Assembly (NCBI RefSeq): GCF_040703035.1
Contig: NZ_CP159996.1
Span: 778,001 to 842,000 of the forward strand
Length of the DNA stretch: 64,000 nucleotides
Reading direction: 5' to 3'
From: Terribacillus aidingensis
GTDB lineage: Bacteria > Bacillota > Bacilli > Bacillales > Amphibacillaceae
The translations under genes were made by a program, and so were the position numbers. Below, in pieces: positions 31,232 through 37,447 of this stretch. Within the stretch, counting starts at the first letter, position 1. Each line of letters starts with the position of its first letter. The notes beneath the pieces are model-generated. The model saw only the letters and a program-made list of their open reading frames with translations, made no database searches and was not told the origin of the DNA.

Positions 31232-32008
31232 TTGAAGTCGAATAATAAAAAGATACCTTATGATGTGAGTCGCTACCGGACACCTGATGGGTATACATCG
31301 GATATAGCTGTATTTACCATTACCTCCGAAAAGACCAAAGCATATGCTCCGCCAAAAATGAAACTCAAGTTGATGCTCATCAAGCGTGCCGAGAAGGATA
31401 CGGAAGGAAATCCGAATATCGAAGCAGGGAAGTGGGCATTGCCCGGAGGTTTCGTTACACCGGAAGAAACGGCCATCGAGGCAGCCAGCCGGGAATTGGA
31501 AGAGGAGACGGGAATAGCAGGAATACATTTGAAACACTTTGGTGTATACGATGACCCAGGACGTGATCCGCGCGGGTGGATCATCTCGAATGCGCATTAT
31601 GCTATTGTCCCGGAACACAGATTATTTGAGAGAAAAGCGAATGATGATGCCGCAGAAGTGGAACTGTTCCCTGTACAAGATCTAGAGCAGCATCTTTTAG
31701 CATTTGATCACGCCAGTATAATCCGTCATGCTATTACTCATATAACACGAGATTTACTGCAAACTACAGTAGCAAAGCAATTCTTGCCAGAGCTGTTCAC
31801 TTACTCGGAACTGCAGGCAGTCTTGCTGACGATAACGGATGATAAAGCAATTCAAAATGAGCAAGCTTTTGCACGTAAAATTAAAACATTGCCTTTCATC
31901 GTAGCAGTTGAAGGGCAGAAGACACAGCGAACATCCAAGCTGCCAACTCAGCTTTATCGGTTCATTGATGCGGAAGTGAAGCAATCGATTTATACAGCTC
32001 GTCATTAA
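31232..32008 (+). CDS. nrtR: Nudix-domain regulator NrtR
   Basis: 258 residues from TTG 31232, nine bases after AAGGAG. An N-terminal Nudix domain with an intact box (G-F-V-T-P-E-E ... RELEEETGI, near 72-93) is joined to a C-terminal winged-helix segment (LFTYSELQAVLLTI...RKIKTLPFIV). This is the NrtR architecture, a repressor of NAD genes that releases DNA on binding ADP-ribose. Position at the head of a pncA-pncB-nadD operon behind a palindrome supports this. Because the Nudix box is complete, residual ADP-ribose or NADH hydrolase activity is possible. Confidence 0.85.
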   Translation: MKSNNKKIPYDVSRYRTPDGYTSDIAVFTITSEKTKAYAPPKMKLKLMLIKRAEKDTEGNPNIEAGKWALPGGFVTPEETAIEAASRELEEETGIAGIHLKHFGVYDDPGRDPRGWIISNAHYAIVPEHRLFERKANDDAAEVELFPVQDLEQHLLAFDHASIIRHAITHITRDLLQTTVAKQFLPELFTYSELQAVLLTITDDKAIQNEQAFARKIKTLPFIVAVEGQKTQRTSKLPTQLYRFIDAEVKQSIYTARH

Positions 32009-32026
32009 TCCAGAGGAGGATGAAAG

Positions 32027-32587
32027 ATGAAAGCATTGATAAATATCGATTATACGAATGACTTTGTAGCAGAAGATGGGGCACTGACTTGCGGGGTGCC
32101 AGGACGGGAGATCGAGGAACGGCTTACGGCGATTACCTCTGAATTCATTAAGAACGGTGACTATGTTGTTTTTGCAATTGATAAGCATGAGGAGAAGGAT
32201 GCATATCATCCAGAAACCAAGCTGTATCCACCGCACAATATAGATGGGACAGAGGGACGTGCACTTTATGGCAAGCTGTCGGATGCATATGAATCTGCCA
32301 AGCATGAATTGAATGTCTATTATATGGATAAAACAAGATACAGTGCTTTTGCAGGGACCGATTTGCTGCAGCGGCTAAATGAGCGTGGTATCAAGGAGAT
32401 TCATGCTGTTGGTGTAGCAACAGATATTTGTGTTTTCCATACACTGGTCGATGCATATAATTATGGCTTCAAAATCGTTGTTCACGCAGATGCTGTTGCT
32501 AGTTTCAACCAAGAGGGGCATACATACGCCCTGCATCACTTTAAAAGCGCGTTAGGAGCAGAGATTACAGAAGGAGGAGCGGAATGA
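32027..32587 (+). CDS. pncA: Nicotinamidase (isochorismatase-like cysteine hydrolase)
   Basis: 186 residues. Catalytic triad visible: Asp in LINIDYTNDF (residue 8), Lys in YMDKTRYSAF (near 102) and Cys in GVATDICVFHT (near 136). A DKH metal site follows in FAIDKHEEKD. It converts nicotinamide to nicotinate. The operon and its overlap with the nicotinate phosphoribosyltransferase gene support this over a generic isochorismatase. Confidence 0.9.
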   Translation: MKALINIDYTNDFVAEDGALTCGVPGREIEERLTAITSEFIKNGDYVVFAIDKHEEKDAYHPETKLYPPHNIDGTEGRALYGKLSDAYESAKHELNVYYMDKTRYSAFAGTDLLQRLNERGIKEIHAVGVATDICVFHTLVDAYNYGFKIVVHADAVASFNQEGHTYALHHFKSALGAEITEGGAE

Positions 32588-34047
32588 TGACACATTATCA
32601 GGATGATAGCACGGCATTGCACACAGACCTTTATCAAATCAATATGGCACAGACGTATTGGAAGGATGGAAAGCATAATCGCAAAGCAGTATTCGAGCTG
32701 TTTTTCCGTAAACAGCCCTTCGGTAATGGATTTGCTGTTTTCGCTGGCTTGGAGCGAGTCATCGATTATTTGAAAGAATTCCGTTTCTCGAATTCAGATC
32801 TGGAGTATCTTGAGCAGGAACTGGGATATGAGAAGGAGTTCATCGCCTACCTGCGCGACCTGCGCTTTACTGGGGATTTGTACAGCATGAAGGAAGGAGA
32901 GCTTGTCTTCGGTACCGAGCCGATCATCCGGGTAGAAGCTCCGCTTGCTCAAGCACAGCTGATCGAAACAGCACTGCTGAATATCGTGAACTACCAGACA
33001 CTCATCGCTACAAAGGCTGCTCGTATCATGCATGTATTGGATGAGGGAGATACAGCGATGGAATTCGGCTCCAGGCGGGCCCAGGAGATGGATGCGGCTA
33101 TTTGGGGGACAAGAGCTGCTTATATCGGCGGCTTTCATGCAACGTCCAATGTGCGGGCAGGCAAAAAGTTCGGCATACCGGTTGCTGGAACCCACGCGCA
33201 TGCGCTAGTGCAAGCCTATCGTGACGAGTATGAAGCATTTCATAAGTATGCGGAAACTCATGTGGATTGCACGTTTCTCGTCGATACGTACGATACACTG
33301 AAGTCTGGTGTACCAAATGCAATCAGGGTCGCAAAAGAAATGGGTGATAAGATCCGTTTTAACGCTATTCGTCTGGACAGCGGCGATTTAGCCTACTTAT
33401 CCAAGCGGGCACGGGAAATGCTTGATGAAGCAGGCTTTACGGAAACGAAAATTACCGCATCCAACGATTTGGATGAGGAAACGATTGGTGCTCTGAAGGC
33501 TCAGGGAGCCAAAATCGACAACTGGGGTATCGGGACGAAGCTTATTACTGCTTTTGATCAGCCAGCATTAGGGGCGGTGTATAAGATAGTTTCCATTGAA
33601 GATGACAATGGAAATATGGCCGATACAATCAAAATCAGCGCCAATCCTGAAAAGGTTTCTACCCCTGGTCTTAAACGGGTCTATCGGATTATCAATCGAG
33701 CAAACCAAAAATCAGAAGGAGATTATATTGCGCTTGCCCATGAAAATCCGGAGGAAGAACCACGACTCAAAATGTTCCATCCAACCTATCCGTACATTAG
33801 TAAATTTGTAACAGATTTTGAAGCGAAGGAGCTTCAGCAGCCTGTTTTTCAAAAGGGTGAACTCGTGTACAAACTGCCATCTTTAGAGGAGACACGGAAC
33901 TACGTCACACACAGCCTCACATTCTTATGGGATGAATATAAGCGGACTCATAATCCAGAAGCTTATCCTGTCGATTTAAGCACAGCTTGCTGGGATAATA
34001 AAATGGAATTGATCGAGCGCATCAAATCACAGCTGGAGGAGAAGTAG
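32584..34047 (+). CDS. pncB: Nicotinate phosphoribosyltransferase
   Basis: 487 residues, the usual length for the Bacillus-type enzyme. TDLYQINMAQTYW at the N-terminus, FAVFAGLERVIDYL, EFGSRRAQEMDAAIWGTRAAYIGGF (near 160-185), GTHAHALVQAY with the catalytic His, and RLDSGDLAYLS (near 265) are family hallmarks. It makes nicotinate mononucleotide from nicotinate, PRPP and ATP. ATGA overlap with pncA indicates coupling. Confidence 0.93.
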   Translation: MMTHYQDDSTALHTDLYQINMAQTYWKDGKHNRKAVFELFFRKQPFGNGFAVFAGLERVIDYLKEFRFSNSDLEYLEQELGYEKEFIAYLRDLRFTGDLYSMKEGELVFGTEPIIRVEAPLAQAQLIETALLNIVNYQTLIATKAARIMHVLDEGDTAMEFGSRRAQEMDAAIWGTRAAYIGGFHATSNVRAGKKFGIPVAGTHAHALVQAYRDEYEAFHKYAETHVDCTFLVDTYDTLKSGVPNAIRVAKEMGDKIRFNAIRLDSGDLAYLSKRAREMLDEAGFTETKITASNDLDEETIGALKAQGAKIDNWGIGTKLITAFDQPALGAVYKIVSIEDDNGNMADTIKISANPEKVSTPGLKRVYRIINRANQKSEGDYIALAHENPEEEPRLKMFHPTYPYISKFVTDFEAKELQQPVFQKGELVYKLPSLEETRNYVTHSLTFLWDEYKRTHNPEAYPVDLSTACWDNKMELIERIKSQLEEK

Positions 34048-34048
34048 C

Positions 34049-34663
34049 ATGGGAAAAATCGGAATTTATGGCTCATCATTCGATCCTGTTACAAATGTCC
34101 ATTTATGGACTGCCAGTACGGTCGCTCACCGTTGTAAGCTGGATAAGGTCATTTTCCTGCCATGCTCCAGTAAGCGAAAAGACAAACAGCTTCATACGAC
34201 AGACGAACATCGCTGGCAGATGGTGCAGATGGCAATAAAGGATAATGACTGCTATATTGCAGATGATTATGAGATGAAGCAGGAAGCTTGGAATGTTTAT
34301 ACCGAGCAGACACTAACGCATTTTAAAGAAGTCTATCCCGATGATGAGGTCTACTTCATTATGGGAGCTGACCTGCTAGAGGATATCGGCGCTGGAAAAT
34401 GGGGGAACAGTGAAGCACTTGTTCGCGATAACCGATTTATAGTCATGGCTCGTAACGATATTGATATGCTGAAGGTAATCAGCCATTCTCCGCTGCTGCG
34501 AAATCATGATGACGGACAAACATTCCATTTGATTGATAAAGGACTGGCGATGGAGATCAGCTCCACATATATCCGCGACGAGTTTGCTGTTGGAGGAGAG
34601 CCGCGGTATTTGCTTCCAGAAAGCTGTTATCAGTATATTAAGGAGCATCAGATATATAAATAG
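34049..34663 (+). CDS. nadD: Nicotinate mononucleotide adenylyltransferase
   Basis: 204 residues, one base after pncB. Nucleotidyltransferase fold: GIYGSSFDPVTNVHL carries the (T/H)xxH-type site and ISSTYIR near residue 170 is the ISSTxxR motif. It adenylates NaMN to deamido-NAD. The N-terminal loop (GSSFDPVTNVH) departs from the housekeeping GGTFDPPHLGH, so this is probably a second, salvage-dedicated NadD rather than the yqeJ-type enzyme. Confidence 0.85.
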   Translation: MGKIGIYGSSFDPVTNVHLWTASTVAHRCKLDKVIFLPCSSKRKDKQLHTTDEHRWQMVQMAIKDNDCYIADDYEMKQEAWNVYTEQTLTHFKEVYPDDEVYFIMGADLLEDIGAGKWGNSEALVRDNRFIVMARNDIDMLKVISHSPLLRNHDDGQTFHLIDKGLAMEISSTYIRDEFAVGGEPRYLLPESCYQYIKEHQIYK

Positions 34664-34671
34664 AACTAATT

Positions 34672-34716
34672 AAAATATGGATAATCGGTCTTTGAGGACT
34701 AATTGTCCATATTTTT
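34672..34716 (+). terminator. Terminator of the NAD salvage operon
   Basis: AAAATATGGA pairs with TCCATATTTT, with a 24-nt internal loop region, followed by T-rich sequence. It marks the left limit of the AT-rich cassette. Confidence 0.6.
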
Positions 34717-34771
34717 GTGGTTATATTTAACAATAGATTAAATATTTTTAACTATGAAAATAAACTATATG

Positions 34772-34795
34772 TTAACATTAATACTATTAAGTTAA
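34772..34795. promoter_or_regulatory. Imperfect palindrome before the HEPN-STAND gene
   Basis: TTAACATTAATA is followed, one base later, by TATTAAGTTAA, an inverted repeat with a single extra A. It lies 15 bp upstream of the start codon and may be an operator. It shares TTAACAT with the palindrome at 31196-31214 but is not the same. Confidence 0.35.
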
Positions 34796-34810
34796 ACGGG
34801 GGTAAATTCA

Positions 34811-37342
34811 ATGTTAACTAATATAGATGGTTACAAAAAGATTTTTTTCTTAGAAAATCTTTTAAGAGAATACCTGGTAGATTATGTTGATAAAAGTGAT
34901 TTAAATGTTACATTTGTAGAGAAAATGGAAGCAATGGCAAGTGAAAATGGCGAGATGGAAACTAATCAACTAGATAAGTTGGTTTTATATTCTCATATCG
35001 GTGAATTAGCGGATGTCATAAAAAGTAAAGCTTTTATTAGAAAAAAACCGAATCAAATTAGTAAAATAAATGTTCAAATACTAATAAGGCATAGAAATAA
35101 TATAATGCATTCTCGATCTATATCTTTAGAAGAAATGGAAGAAATTGAACGTGTATGTGATAAAGTTATTGTATATTTAAATGATGTAGATTACCAACAA
35201 AAATGGAATGAATTTAAAATAAACGATATTGATAACTTTAAAATACCGGAAGTCTTTATTGAATATCCAATAGGGAAGAATTTTGACCGTCTAATTGGAC
35301 GAGGAAAAGAACTAAAAGATTTGAAATTCGAAATAACCAAACCTATACCTGTTTCAATTGTAGGTCATGGGGGCTTAGGTAAGACAGCATTAGTTCTTCA
35401 GCTTATAGAAGATTATATATATTCACCGAGTCAACCTTTTGAGAACATTTATTTTATGAGTTTTAAAAATTCAGTCTTTGAGAATGGAAAAATCCGTAGA
35501 CTTGATAAGTCAATAACAAATCATAAAGATCTAATATTAAAACTTGCTTCGTATATGAAATTTGATTTAAGTTCCGATTTAAAGTTATTAGAGGAAAAAG
35601 TTTGGACCGAGATATTTAATACAAGGTCTTTACTTATTTTGGATAATTTAGAGACAGAGATAGTAAACTCAAATTTAGGTGAATTTAGAGAAATAGCTAG
35701 GGATTTTACAAATAATTTTACAAAGCCATCCAGGTTAATAATCACCAGCAGATATGGATTGGGAGATAGGGAAGCAAAACTCCCCTTATTTCAATTTGAT
35801 TTAGAAAATACTAAGAAGCTAATGGAAAATTATCTGAATGCAGATCTTTTATTAGAAAAGGATATTCGAGAAGAAGATTGGCGTTGGATCCAAAGTTATA
35901 CACAGGGTAATCCAGGGCTAATTATAGCCTTTAGTAATACGCTTAAGACAACTGGTAAAAAGCTTTTAGATTTAAGAGTAGAATATGACACAAAATATAC
36001 TGCTGAATCAAGAGATTTACACAATCAGCTAGAAGAATTCCTGATTTTTTGCTTTGAGAATACTATAGAAAGTATGAATAAAGAGTCACAAATCTTCCTC
36101 GCTATTTTATGCTATATCTGTTCAGAAGCAGATATACAAGAAATTAATGAGGGTATGATAACATACCTAAAAGACGAAGTGGGGTTAAAGAAACTTGGTG
36201 AAGAAAATCTAAGAGCTCAAATTTTCACTAATATTGGATTTTTACAACCTATTCCTAATTCCAATAAATACTACGTAAACGAATTGTATATTCAGTATTT
36301 AGACGGTAATTACTCTGACAATATTTATAATGTCTTTCGATTGAAAGGTTCTGAATGGTATTCCAAATTGGAAGAATTGAAGAATCAAATCAATGAAATT
36401 CAGTTTAATGAAGAATTATCGTTAAGTACATTGTTATCAGAACTCTATATGTCCAAATATAAGATTAAAAATGACAGAAAGTATCTTATTAATGCATTCT
36501 ATTGCGAGCCTACACTAAATAAACTAATACAGATATATCAAAAATCAAGTAAAACTGAAGTGATTGAGAATTTTGTCTTATTAGATAAGCTACAAGTTGA
36601 ACTTAAAGACAATAGAAAAGTTGATAAACAAAATAGAGTGATTGAGTTAATTTTAAAAGCTTTAACTAATATAAATAGAGAGATATTAAAGAGAAATATA
36701 AATACTATAAAACAACGAGATTTACATGAAATTTACAAGCAATTGATGGATAAAATTCCTATCTTAAGGGATGGAACGGTTAGTTTACCAGTGAAGAAAT
36801 TGGCTTGTCCATTACTGATTACATTTAAAGATTATTCAGAAGTTCAAAAATTAATTAAGAATGAGTCAAAATTGATAACCGAAAGATTTAACCTTTATTT
36901 AAAACAATTGGGTGATCTATCGGGTAGTAATAACGAAGAGTGTATTACTTATATTGAGGAGTGTAAGGAAATTATTAAGTTACATCCAGATAAAATTTCA
37001 TTATTCTTAGTAGCGCAATATAAATTATACTCATCTAGATATTTTAAGAAAAATGATCCTGAAGAAGCTCTAAAAATACTTGAGAATTTTGAAGCGTATT
37101 TTGATCAGAATAATATAAAAATGTTTGTATTTTCTTTAGAATCTTTATTGATTAGAATGGAATGTTTACTAAAAGTAAATGGGGATTTTAACAAAGTTAA
37201 TAGTTTAAAAGGTATTTTTGAGAAATATCAAAGTTTACCGCAGTATAAAAATTTATTTAAAGACAAAAGAGTTAACCTTGAACAAAACTATAGGCGTACA
37301 GTACAAAAATATCAAAATAAAATTAAGTATAAAGTGAAATAA
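34811..37342 (+). CDS. HEPN-STAND (NB-ARC-like) protein, probable defence gene
   Basis: 843 residues in strikingly AT-rich DNA (AAA, ATA, TTA codons), unlike its neighbours. Residues 1-125 are helical and contain RNNIMH at 95-100, the RNxxxH motif of HEPN ribonucleases, in a context like Swt1-type HEPN domains. Residues about 150-400 form a STAND NTPase of NB-ARC type: Walker A GHGGLGKT (185-192), Walker B LLILDNLE (274-281), sensor SRLIITSRYG (307-316) and GNPGLI (366-371) at the GxP position. Residues 420-840 are entirely helical, with repeat-like helix pairs suitable for a TPR-type sensor. The architecture suggests target sensing by the C-terminus, NTP-driven assembly and RNA cleavage by HEPN, i.e. 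abortive infection; this is inferred. Ribosome-binding site GGGGGT. Confidence 0.8.
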   Translation: MLTNIDGYKKIFFLENLLREYLVDYVDKSDLNVTFVEKMEAMASENGEMETNQLDKLVLYSHIGELADVIKSKAFIRKKPNQISKINVQILIRHRNNIMHSRSISLEEMEEIERVCDKVIVYLNDVDYQQKWNEFKINDIDNFKIPEVFIEYPIGKNFDRLIGRGKELKDLKFEITKPIPVSIVGHGGLGKTALVLQLIEDYIYSPSQPFENIYFMSFKNSVFENGKIRRLDKSITNHKDLILKLASYMKFDLSSDLKLLEEKVWTEIFNTRSLLILDNLETEIVNSNLGEFREIARDFTNNFTKPSRLIITSRYGLGDREAKLPLFQFDLENTKKLMENYLNADLLLEKDIREEDWRWIQSYTQGNPGLIIAFSNTLKTTGKKLLDLRVEYDTKYTAESRDLHNQLEEFLIFCFENTIESMNKESQIFLAILCYICSEADIQEINEGMITYLKDEVGLKKLGEENLRAQIFTNIGFLQPIPNSNKYYVNELYIQYLDGNYSDNIYNVFRLKGSEWYSKLEELKNQINEIQFNEELSLSTLLSELYMSKYKIKNDRKYLINAFYCEPTLNKLIQIYQKSSKTEVIENFVLLDKLQVELKDNRKVDKQNRVIELILKALTNINREILKRNINTIKQRDLHEIYKQLMDKIPILRDGTVSLPVKKLACPLLITFKDYSEVQKLIKNESKLITERFNLYLKQLGDLSGSNNEECITYIEECKEIIKLHPDKISLFLVAQYKLYSSRYFKKNDPEEALKILENFEAYFDQNNIKMFVFSLESLLIRMECLLKVNGDFNKVNSLKGIFEKYQSLPQYKNLFKDKRVNLEQNYRRTVQKYQNKIKYKVK

Positions 37343-37373
37343 ACAGCCATCAATGATGGCTGTTTATTTTTTA
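37341..37373 (+). terminator. Terminator after HEPN-STAND gene
   Basis: AAACAGCCATCA and TGATGGCTGTTT form a perfect 12-bp stem around one A, followed by ATTTTTT. The stem starts at the stop codon. Confidence 0.9.
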
Positions 37374-37374
37374 G

Positions 37375-37447
37375 TGGAGCATAGCGGGCTCGAACCGCTG
37401 ACCTCTTCGCTGCCAGCGAAGCGCTCTCCCAGCTGAGCTAATGCCCC
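37375..37447 (-). tRNA. tRNA-Ala (anticodon GGC)
   Basis: 73 nt on the minus strand. The acceptor stem GGGGCAT pairs with ATGCTCC (one G-T pair), with discriminator A. D-loop TAGCTCAGCTGGGAGAGC, anticodon arm CTTCG-CTGGCAG-CGAAG (anticodon GGC), and T-arm with GGTTCGAGCC are all present. The 3' CCA is not encoded (CTA follows the discriminator). Confidence 0.95.

Follow-up and report, generated by a model that had tools for sequence, protein, structure and literature searches.

A single gene in a 64,000-nucleotide stretch of Terribacillus aidingensis DNA (contig NZ_CP159996.1, positions 778,001 to 842,000; called the window below) probably serves as an anti-phage alarm by which an infected cell is shut down. 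It consists of one open reading frame (ORF) with an ATG start, at 34811..37342 (+), and its 843-residue product, which is related to immune receptors of plants and animals, carries a HEPN-like head, an NB-ARC switch of the STAND class and a helical region presumed to be the sensor. We regard a function in anti-phage defence as highly likely, and an abortive-infection immune receptor with an RNase effector would, as stated, be the best explanation of the sequence and model data, though at most a likely one.

The gene had been picked out earlier, from the sequence, as a single-gene HEPN-STAND defence candidate (the original prediction). The ORF and the motifs RNNIMH, GHGGLGKT, LLILDNLE, SRLIITSRYG and GNPGLI were all found where that prediction had placed them (Table 1), and they are not chance occurrences. 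A search of 5.8 billion proteins (E≤0.001) returned at least 58 homologues, a lower bound because scoring covered the 7,996 candidates with the most shared words. In the alignment of 51 full-length sequences, the window protein included, R95, N96, M99 and H100 of the HEPN motif never vary (51 of 51), and neither do the acidic E15, G187, G188, G190, K191, T192, D278, N279, R308, T312, S313, R314, G366 and N367. Seven shorter matches (505-745 aa) were omitted from the alignment; three of them contain RNxxMH, and the other four start at or past the motif. The organisms named for the homologues, which we take to be all of the class Bacilli, include Priestia, Metabacillus, Bacillus, Paenibacillus, Brevibacillus, Cohnella, Solibacillus and Ureibacillus, and the source labels read 'hypothetical protein', 'ATP-binding protein', 'GTPase SAR1 family' or 'NB-ARC domain-containing protein'.

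The predicted STAND assignment of the NTPase holds and can be narrowed to the NB-ARC type, with the correction that the best-ranked structural matches are plant resistosomes and CED-4. The NB-ARC motif set, comprising the P-loop, Walker B LLxLDNxE, the TSR sensor and GxP, is invariant or nearly so in the 51 sequences, and the structure model shows the NBD-HD1-winged-helix fold of NB-ARC proteins. At E≤1, Pfam reports AAA_16 in 50, NB-ARC in 43 and NACHT in 16 of the 51 members. The window protein scores 21.4 bits on the NB-ARC profile against a cut-off of 23.5; when eight members were rescanned, two passed the cut-off (P0052 with 27.9 and P0016 with 25.2), and in P0051 the NACHT score lay above the NB-ARC score, yet under the NACHT cut-off. 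The VNEL sequence that closes the winged helix (N490 in 51/51, E491 in 46/51) corresponds, in our by-eye reading, roughly to the position of the MHD site of NB-ARC proteins. A sequence search of solved structures was uninformative, as the best 60 of 164 rows were Ras-type P-loops over 24-28 residues.

Support for the HEPN part is weaker than for the NB-ARC part. The Rx4-6H motif of the HEPN superfamily is present as R95-x4-H100 in all 51 sequences, and the profile PF18731 (HEPN_Swt1) matches 24 of them at E≤1 (best 8.1e-5). In the Pfam scan the window protein itself had no HEPN match, and in a scan of eight members and two sister proteins (E≤0.5) HEPN_Swt1 was found only in P0041, one of the eight members, where residues 9-121 aligned with profile positions 2-113 of 115 and the score was 18.1 bits, the gathering score being 27.5; the assignment by profile is therefore suggestive, not conclusive. 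The model of residues 1-145 has a predicted local distance difference test score (pLDDT) of 91.6, and its first-ranked structural matches are AbiF and Csm6. The similarity is modest, which weighs against an RNase effector, and a Foldseek search with the HEPN model gave no known HEPN RNase among the best 50 of 84 matches. RNase activity of the head is thus a prediction that draws mainly on the invariant motif. Alternatively, the protein could be a defence protein whose HEPN-like domain binds RNA or serves as an adaptor, acting, for example, by tRNA sequestration or partner recruitment, and some motif-less HEPN domains probably just bind RNA (accessible text of PMC3710099). We consider this unlikely, since the R and H of the motif, the polar residue following the R, and E15 are invariant, and the same accessible text names these features for active HEPN RNases. 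A free-standing 131-aa protein with RNKIAH and a weak PDC-M34B match (L041:7061-7456) is similar to the window protein over residues 6-120 of the latter.

In the AlphaFold2 model the C-terminal region consists of helices, as had been predicted, and it is the least conserved part of the protein: its mean majority fraction over the 51 sequences is 0.458, while the nucleotide-binding domain reaches 0.707, a difference to be expected for a diversifying sensor. Conservation, profiles in relatives and the structure models uphold the predicted order, in which a HEPN effector is followed by an NB-ARC switch and then by a helical sensor. A second, sister family, labelled 'NB-ARC domain-containing protein', was found through weak genome matches and has 465 matches, among them a protein identical to P0059 of Macrococcus sp. 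DPC7161 (L036) and one from Brevibacillus panacihumi (L037). Profile-profile alignment of the two families (E 2.5e-31, 491 columns) brings the HEPN motifs into register and stops at residue 542 of the window protein; HEPN, NB-ARC and winged helix are therefore common to both. The L036 protein has RNRVMH as its HEPN motif and a clear NB-ARC match (1.3e-13), but differs past residue 542 of the window protein, where the sister family is unalignable and ends in TPR and a cold-shock domain (PF00313). The presumed C-terminal sensor has thus either been swapped or diverged past recognition.

In the mechanism that we infer, from trigger and multimerisation to RNase activity, its substrate and phage protection, the nucleotide-bound NB-ARC module would hold the protein inactive in the resting cell until a molecule made by the phage (or altered by the infection) binds to the C-terminal helical repeat. 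An exchange of nucleotide would then open the NB-ARC-winged-helix module, and the opened protein could multimerise in the manner of plant resistosomes and the CED-4/Apaf-1 apoptosome. According to available excerpts of the literature, HEPN RNases usually occur as dimers, and the multimer would pair the N-terminal HEPN domains. R95 and H100 of the paired domains would cut RNA (tRNA, rRNA or mRNA), upon which translation and phage production would stop and the cell would be lost. The most far-reaching form of the proposal is an 'RNase resistosome', with a plant-NLR-like NB-ARC switch, a new helical sensor of a phage protein and HEPN RNases paired in a ring, belonging to an uncatalogued family that gene exchange at variable slots has carried through the Bacilli; we hold it to be right or wrong with about equal probability.

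The standing of the gene as a defence candidate is upheld by its strain-specific presence and by the defence neighbours of some relatives. No match to the family was found anywhere in a second genome of the same species (G061), nor in eight of eight other congeners. A sample of the order gave any match in 5 of 397 genomes and a class-wide search in 9 of 398; the only full-length member of the window family in either was the window's own, and the sister family occurred in two class genomes. Where loci of the other weak matches from these samples were read, the ORFs were judged by eye to encode ClpB-like proteins, P-loop proteins of other kinds or a small HEPN protein. In the family of the Paenibacillus-like genome G497, 3 of 394 genomes had a match at E≤1e-30. 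The copies of L001, L049 and L050 contain an in-frame stop (the L050 match also lacks the HEPN part), so that gene loss seems common in relatives, which fits costly immune genes. In genome G022 a 129-aa remnant of the family (L038:2284-2673; 59% identity over 80 residues) has apparently decayed in place.

The gene is horizontally acquired and stands alone. Its deviant composition, claimed from the start, was borne out: the GC content is 0.278 against 0.436 in the remaining window, and that of third codon positions 0.224 against 0.456-0.517 in four neighbouring genes. The gene lies in a slot between a nadD-like gene and tRNA-Ala(GGC), and this interval, 34663-37373, is a hot spot whose content varies between congeners (L014-L021). 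The nadD-like gene is present in 10 of 10 genus genomes, the window's own included, the contig of G007 ends at the slot, and in the other eight the slot is without the HEPN-NB-ARC gene. It holds ArsB in three of them (G061, Pfam-tested; G001, 95% identical; G005, with the same ORF start by eye). By-eye labels indicate membrane protein, bacteriocin-like and ABC-transporter genes in G006, and transposase-like genes with the G006-type bacteriocin/ABC genes in G003. The slot measures about 300 bp in G002 and G004, and about 65 bp in G008. A toxic addiction gene, an element-maintenance gene or one excluding other mobile DNA is improbable here: HEPN domains act as toxins in toxin-antitoxin systems (accessible parts of PMC12373285 and PMC3710099) and the slot shows mobile-DNA turnover, but no ORF of at least 60 aa lies between nadD and the gene, no Rfam non-coding RNA was found, 50,697 phage records held no copy, and 72,556 plasmid records gave four distant matches, each covering 27-44% of the protein. 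Viral contigs gave no match either in a pattern-based scan (21 stretches examined).

The flanks of five family loci were read for neighbours. In Sporosarcina luteola (L001) an SLFN-type helicase and matches to GmrSD/HEC-06, PDC-M33A/B and PDC-M24B lie around the gene (seven neighbours scanned), at L049 PDC-S39 and PD-Lambda-3_A were found 4-6 kb away (five scanned), at L048 a divergent TIR gene lies about 0.7 kb off, and at L050 the two neighbours scanned had no PADLOC match. Single PADLOC matches are unsafe as evidence because generic window genes beside the slot score strongly: a window exonuclease reaches 3.5e-37 on PDC-S48 and an ABC transporter 2.3e-29 on mad3, and both genes flank the slot in congeners too. 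In the window, 3 of 10 scanned neighbours had matches, which we judged generic. Among the matches at L001 and L049 that we do count as defence, those to HEC-06, PDC-M33A and PDC-S39 span nearly the whole model. A regulator-like neighbour at L048 (mad1, 6.1e-12) was not counted as defence. The low-GC TIR-domain gene at L048 (10913-11845) points away from the HEPN-NB-ARC relative, possibly as a two-gene pair. Of two sister loci, the gene comes after GajA and GajB in L037, a partial methyltransferase gene adjoins it in L036, and a Planococcus plasmid copy has a RelE-type gene some 2-3 kb away; near a distant relative in Rhizobium there is no defence gene.

The STAND class also includes transcription regulators, and the source of the sister protein P0067 gives it the label 'LuxR family glucitol operon transcriptional activator', so the window protein could instead be a regulator of a host process, of the MalT or GutR type. 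This is a quite improbable reading, as the winged helix is part of the NB-ARC module, no separate DNA-binding domain of bacterial regulators appears among the four Pfam families of the window protein or the best 25 of 67 of the family, presence is erratic, and by eye no neighbour gene recurs across the five loci read.

The anti-phage alarm that we favour resembles several known systems in part. To our knowledge, little testing has been done on the bacterial relatives of the NB-ARC switch that plant resistance proteins and the apoptosome use. Plant NLR resistosomes, CED-4 and Apaf-1 carry CC, TIR or CARD at the N-terminus and LRR or WD40 at the C-terminus, whereas the window protein has a HEPN-like N-terminus and a C-terminal helical repeat. 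Neither AbiF/AbiD nor Csm6, the HEPN RNases that are first-ranked structural matches of residues 1-145, has an NB-ARC switch as far as we know, and Csm6 is controlled by cyclic oligoadenylate. AbiF is described in available excerpts as under the control of a non-coding RNA; no Rfam non-coding RNA was found at the window gene, and three upstream regions share no element by eye. STAND proteins consist of effector, NTPase and sensor, and bacteria encode AP-ATPase modules (accessible parts of PMC12931631 and PMC12169576). Avs (AVAST) proteins have this same order in one protein, as does the window protein, but their effectors are nucleases in Avs1-4 and Sir2 in Avs5 (PMC12931631, accessible text) instead of HEPN. 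The window NTPase is of the NB-ARC type, with no Avs model among the PADLOC matches; no Avs entry stands among the 50 structural matches listed, although the proteins may be similar all the same.

The combination had not been recognised in the original prediction; however, HEPN-STAND(-TPR) proteins have been on record since 2013. The accessible text of Anantharaman et al. (PMC3710099) lists an Abi2/Swt1 HEPN family with 'STAND-ATPase, TPR, S1', 'mostly active', including Npun_F6454, MED222_16016 and Desac_1927, and B. cereus gi 229028907 with an N-terminal HEPN, and describes bacterial proteins with N-terminal HEPN and STAND NTPase, some with cold-shock-like domains. The kind is therefore already known, as a prediction. 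Like the window protein, these proteins join a Swt1-group HEPN to a STAND NTPase, theirs with TPR; judged by their descriptions they differ in S1/cold-shock domains, whereas the window protein has no Pfam match to either. The window protein belongs to this predicted class of bacterial NLR-like proteins, but has a different sensor. Among the validated systems in the accessible text of DefensePredictor (PMC13092281) are HEPN systems, one of which has CBS domains; a NACHT-metallophosphatase system is reported as well, and a HEPN-NB-ARC fusion was not found there. Our literature search, with most subscription literature outside its coverage, turned up no experiments on a HEPN-NB-ARC protein.

The PADLOC check suggested with the original prediction (PADLOC-DB 2023, E≤10) gave weak matches to mad8 and PDC-M34B for the window protein and nothing else, and no full-length system model. 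The mad8 match (18 bits) was rejected as a generic P-loop match; the window ABC transporter reaches 1.5e-8 on the same model. For the 51 members, five families were matched at E≤0.01, none of them Avs. As judged by these profiles, the gene is not covered by PADLOC-DB 2023. If the proposal is true, one gene lets NLR-like activation of an RNase and the sensed phage molecule be asked about directly, and there is more reason to think that immune receptors of plants and animals have parts in common with anti-phage proteins of bacteria.

Table 1. Features of the HEPN-NB-ARC gene and its slot in the window.
Feature	Position	Strand	Basis
HEPN-NB-ARC (STAND) protein, 843 aa	34811..37342	+	ORF; at least 58 homologues; AlphaFold2 model, pLDDT 87.9
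N-terminal Swt1/AbiF-type HEPN domain (suggestive), residues 1-145	34811..35245	+	motif, profiles in relatives, domain model
RNNIMH motif, residues 95-100	35093-35110	+	invariant E15 upstream of motif
NB-ARC module, residues ~146-505	35246..36325	+	P-loop GHGGLGKT 185-192, Walker B LLILDNLE 274-281, RNBS-B-like SRLIITSRYG 307-316, GxP GNPGLI 366-371, winged helix with VNEL 489-492
C-terminal helical repeat, residues ~506-843, presumed sensor	36326..37339	+	helical in model, low conservation
5' leader	34664..34810	+	19-nt inverted repeat 34672-34715; G-rich ribosome-binding site by eye
nadD-like cytidylyltransferase gene, left slot border	34049..34663	+	PF01467, 1.4e-19
Terminator-like hairpin and T-run, 3' to 3' with tRNA-Ala	37336..37370	+	sequence, folding
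tRNA-Ala(GGC), right slot border	37374..37447	-	3' end at 37374

The inverted repeat in the leader is probably the nadD terminator, and an Rfam search of the leader gave no match. The gene had been credited with a terminator of its own. The strong hairpin is there (16 bp, -20.6 kcal/mol, z -6.4), though a terminator scan did not report it; because it sits 3' to 3' with the opposite-strand tRNA-Ala, it probably serves both genes. An Rfam SAM-SAH match at 37341-37381 was rejected, as it scores 23.5 against a cut-off of 40 and overlaps this hairpin. Insertion of the window gene by a tRNA-targeting integrase is unsupported because no copy of the tRNA end of at least 8 bases lies on its left, although G006 has such a duplication: there, 48 bp of the tRNA-Ala 3' end recur without mismatch on the left side of one part of the insert (L017, about 2219-2269 in nadD-to-tRNA orientation), as left by tRNA-targeting integration. 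To the left of the slot, 31232-34663 forms a NAD salvage cluster, with nicotinate phosphoribosyltransferase and nadD-like genes by Pfam and Nudix and nicotinamidase-like genes by eye; other genomes suggest that it is unlinked to the HEPN gene.
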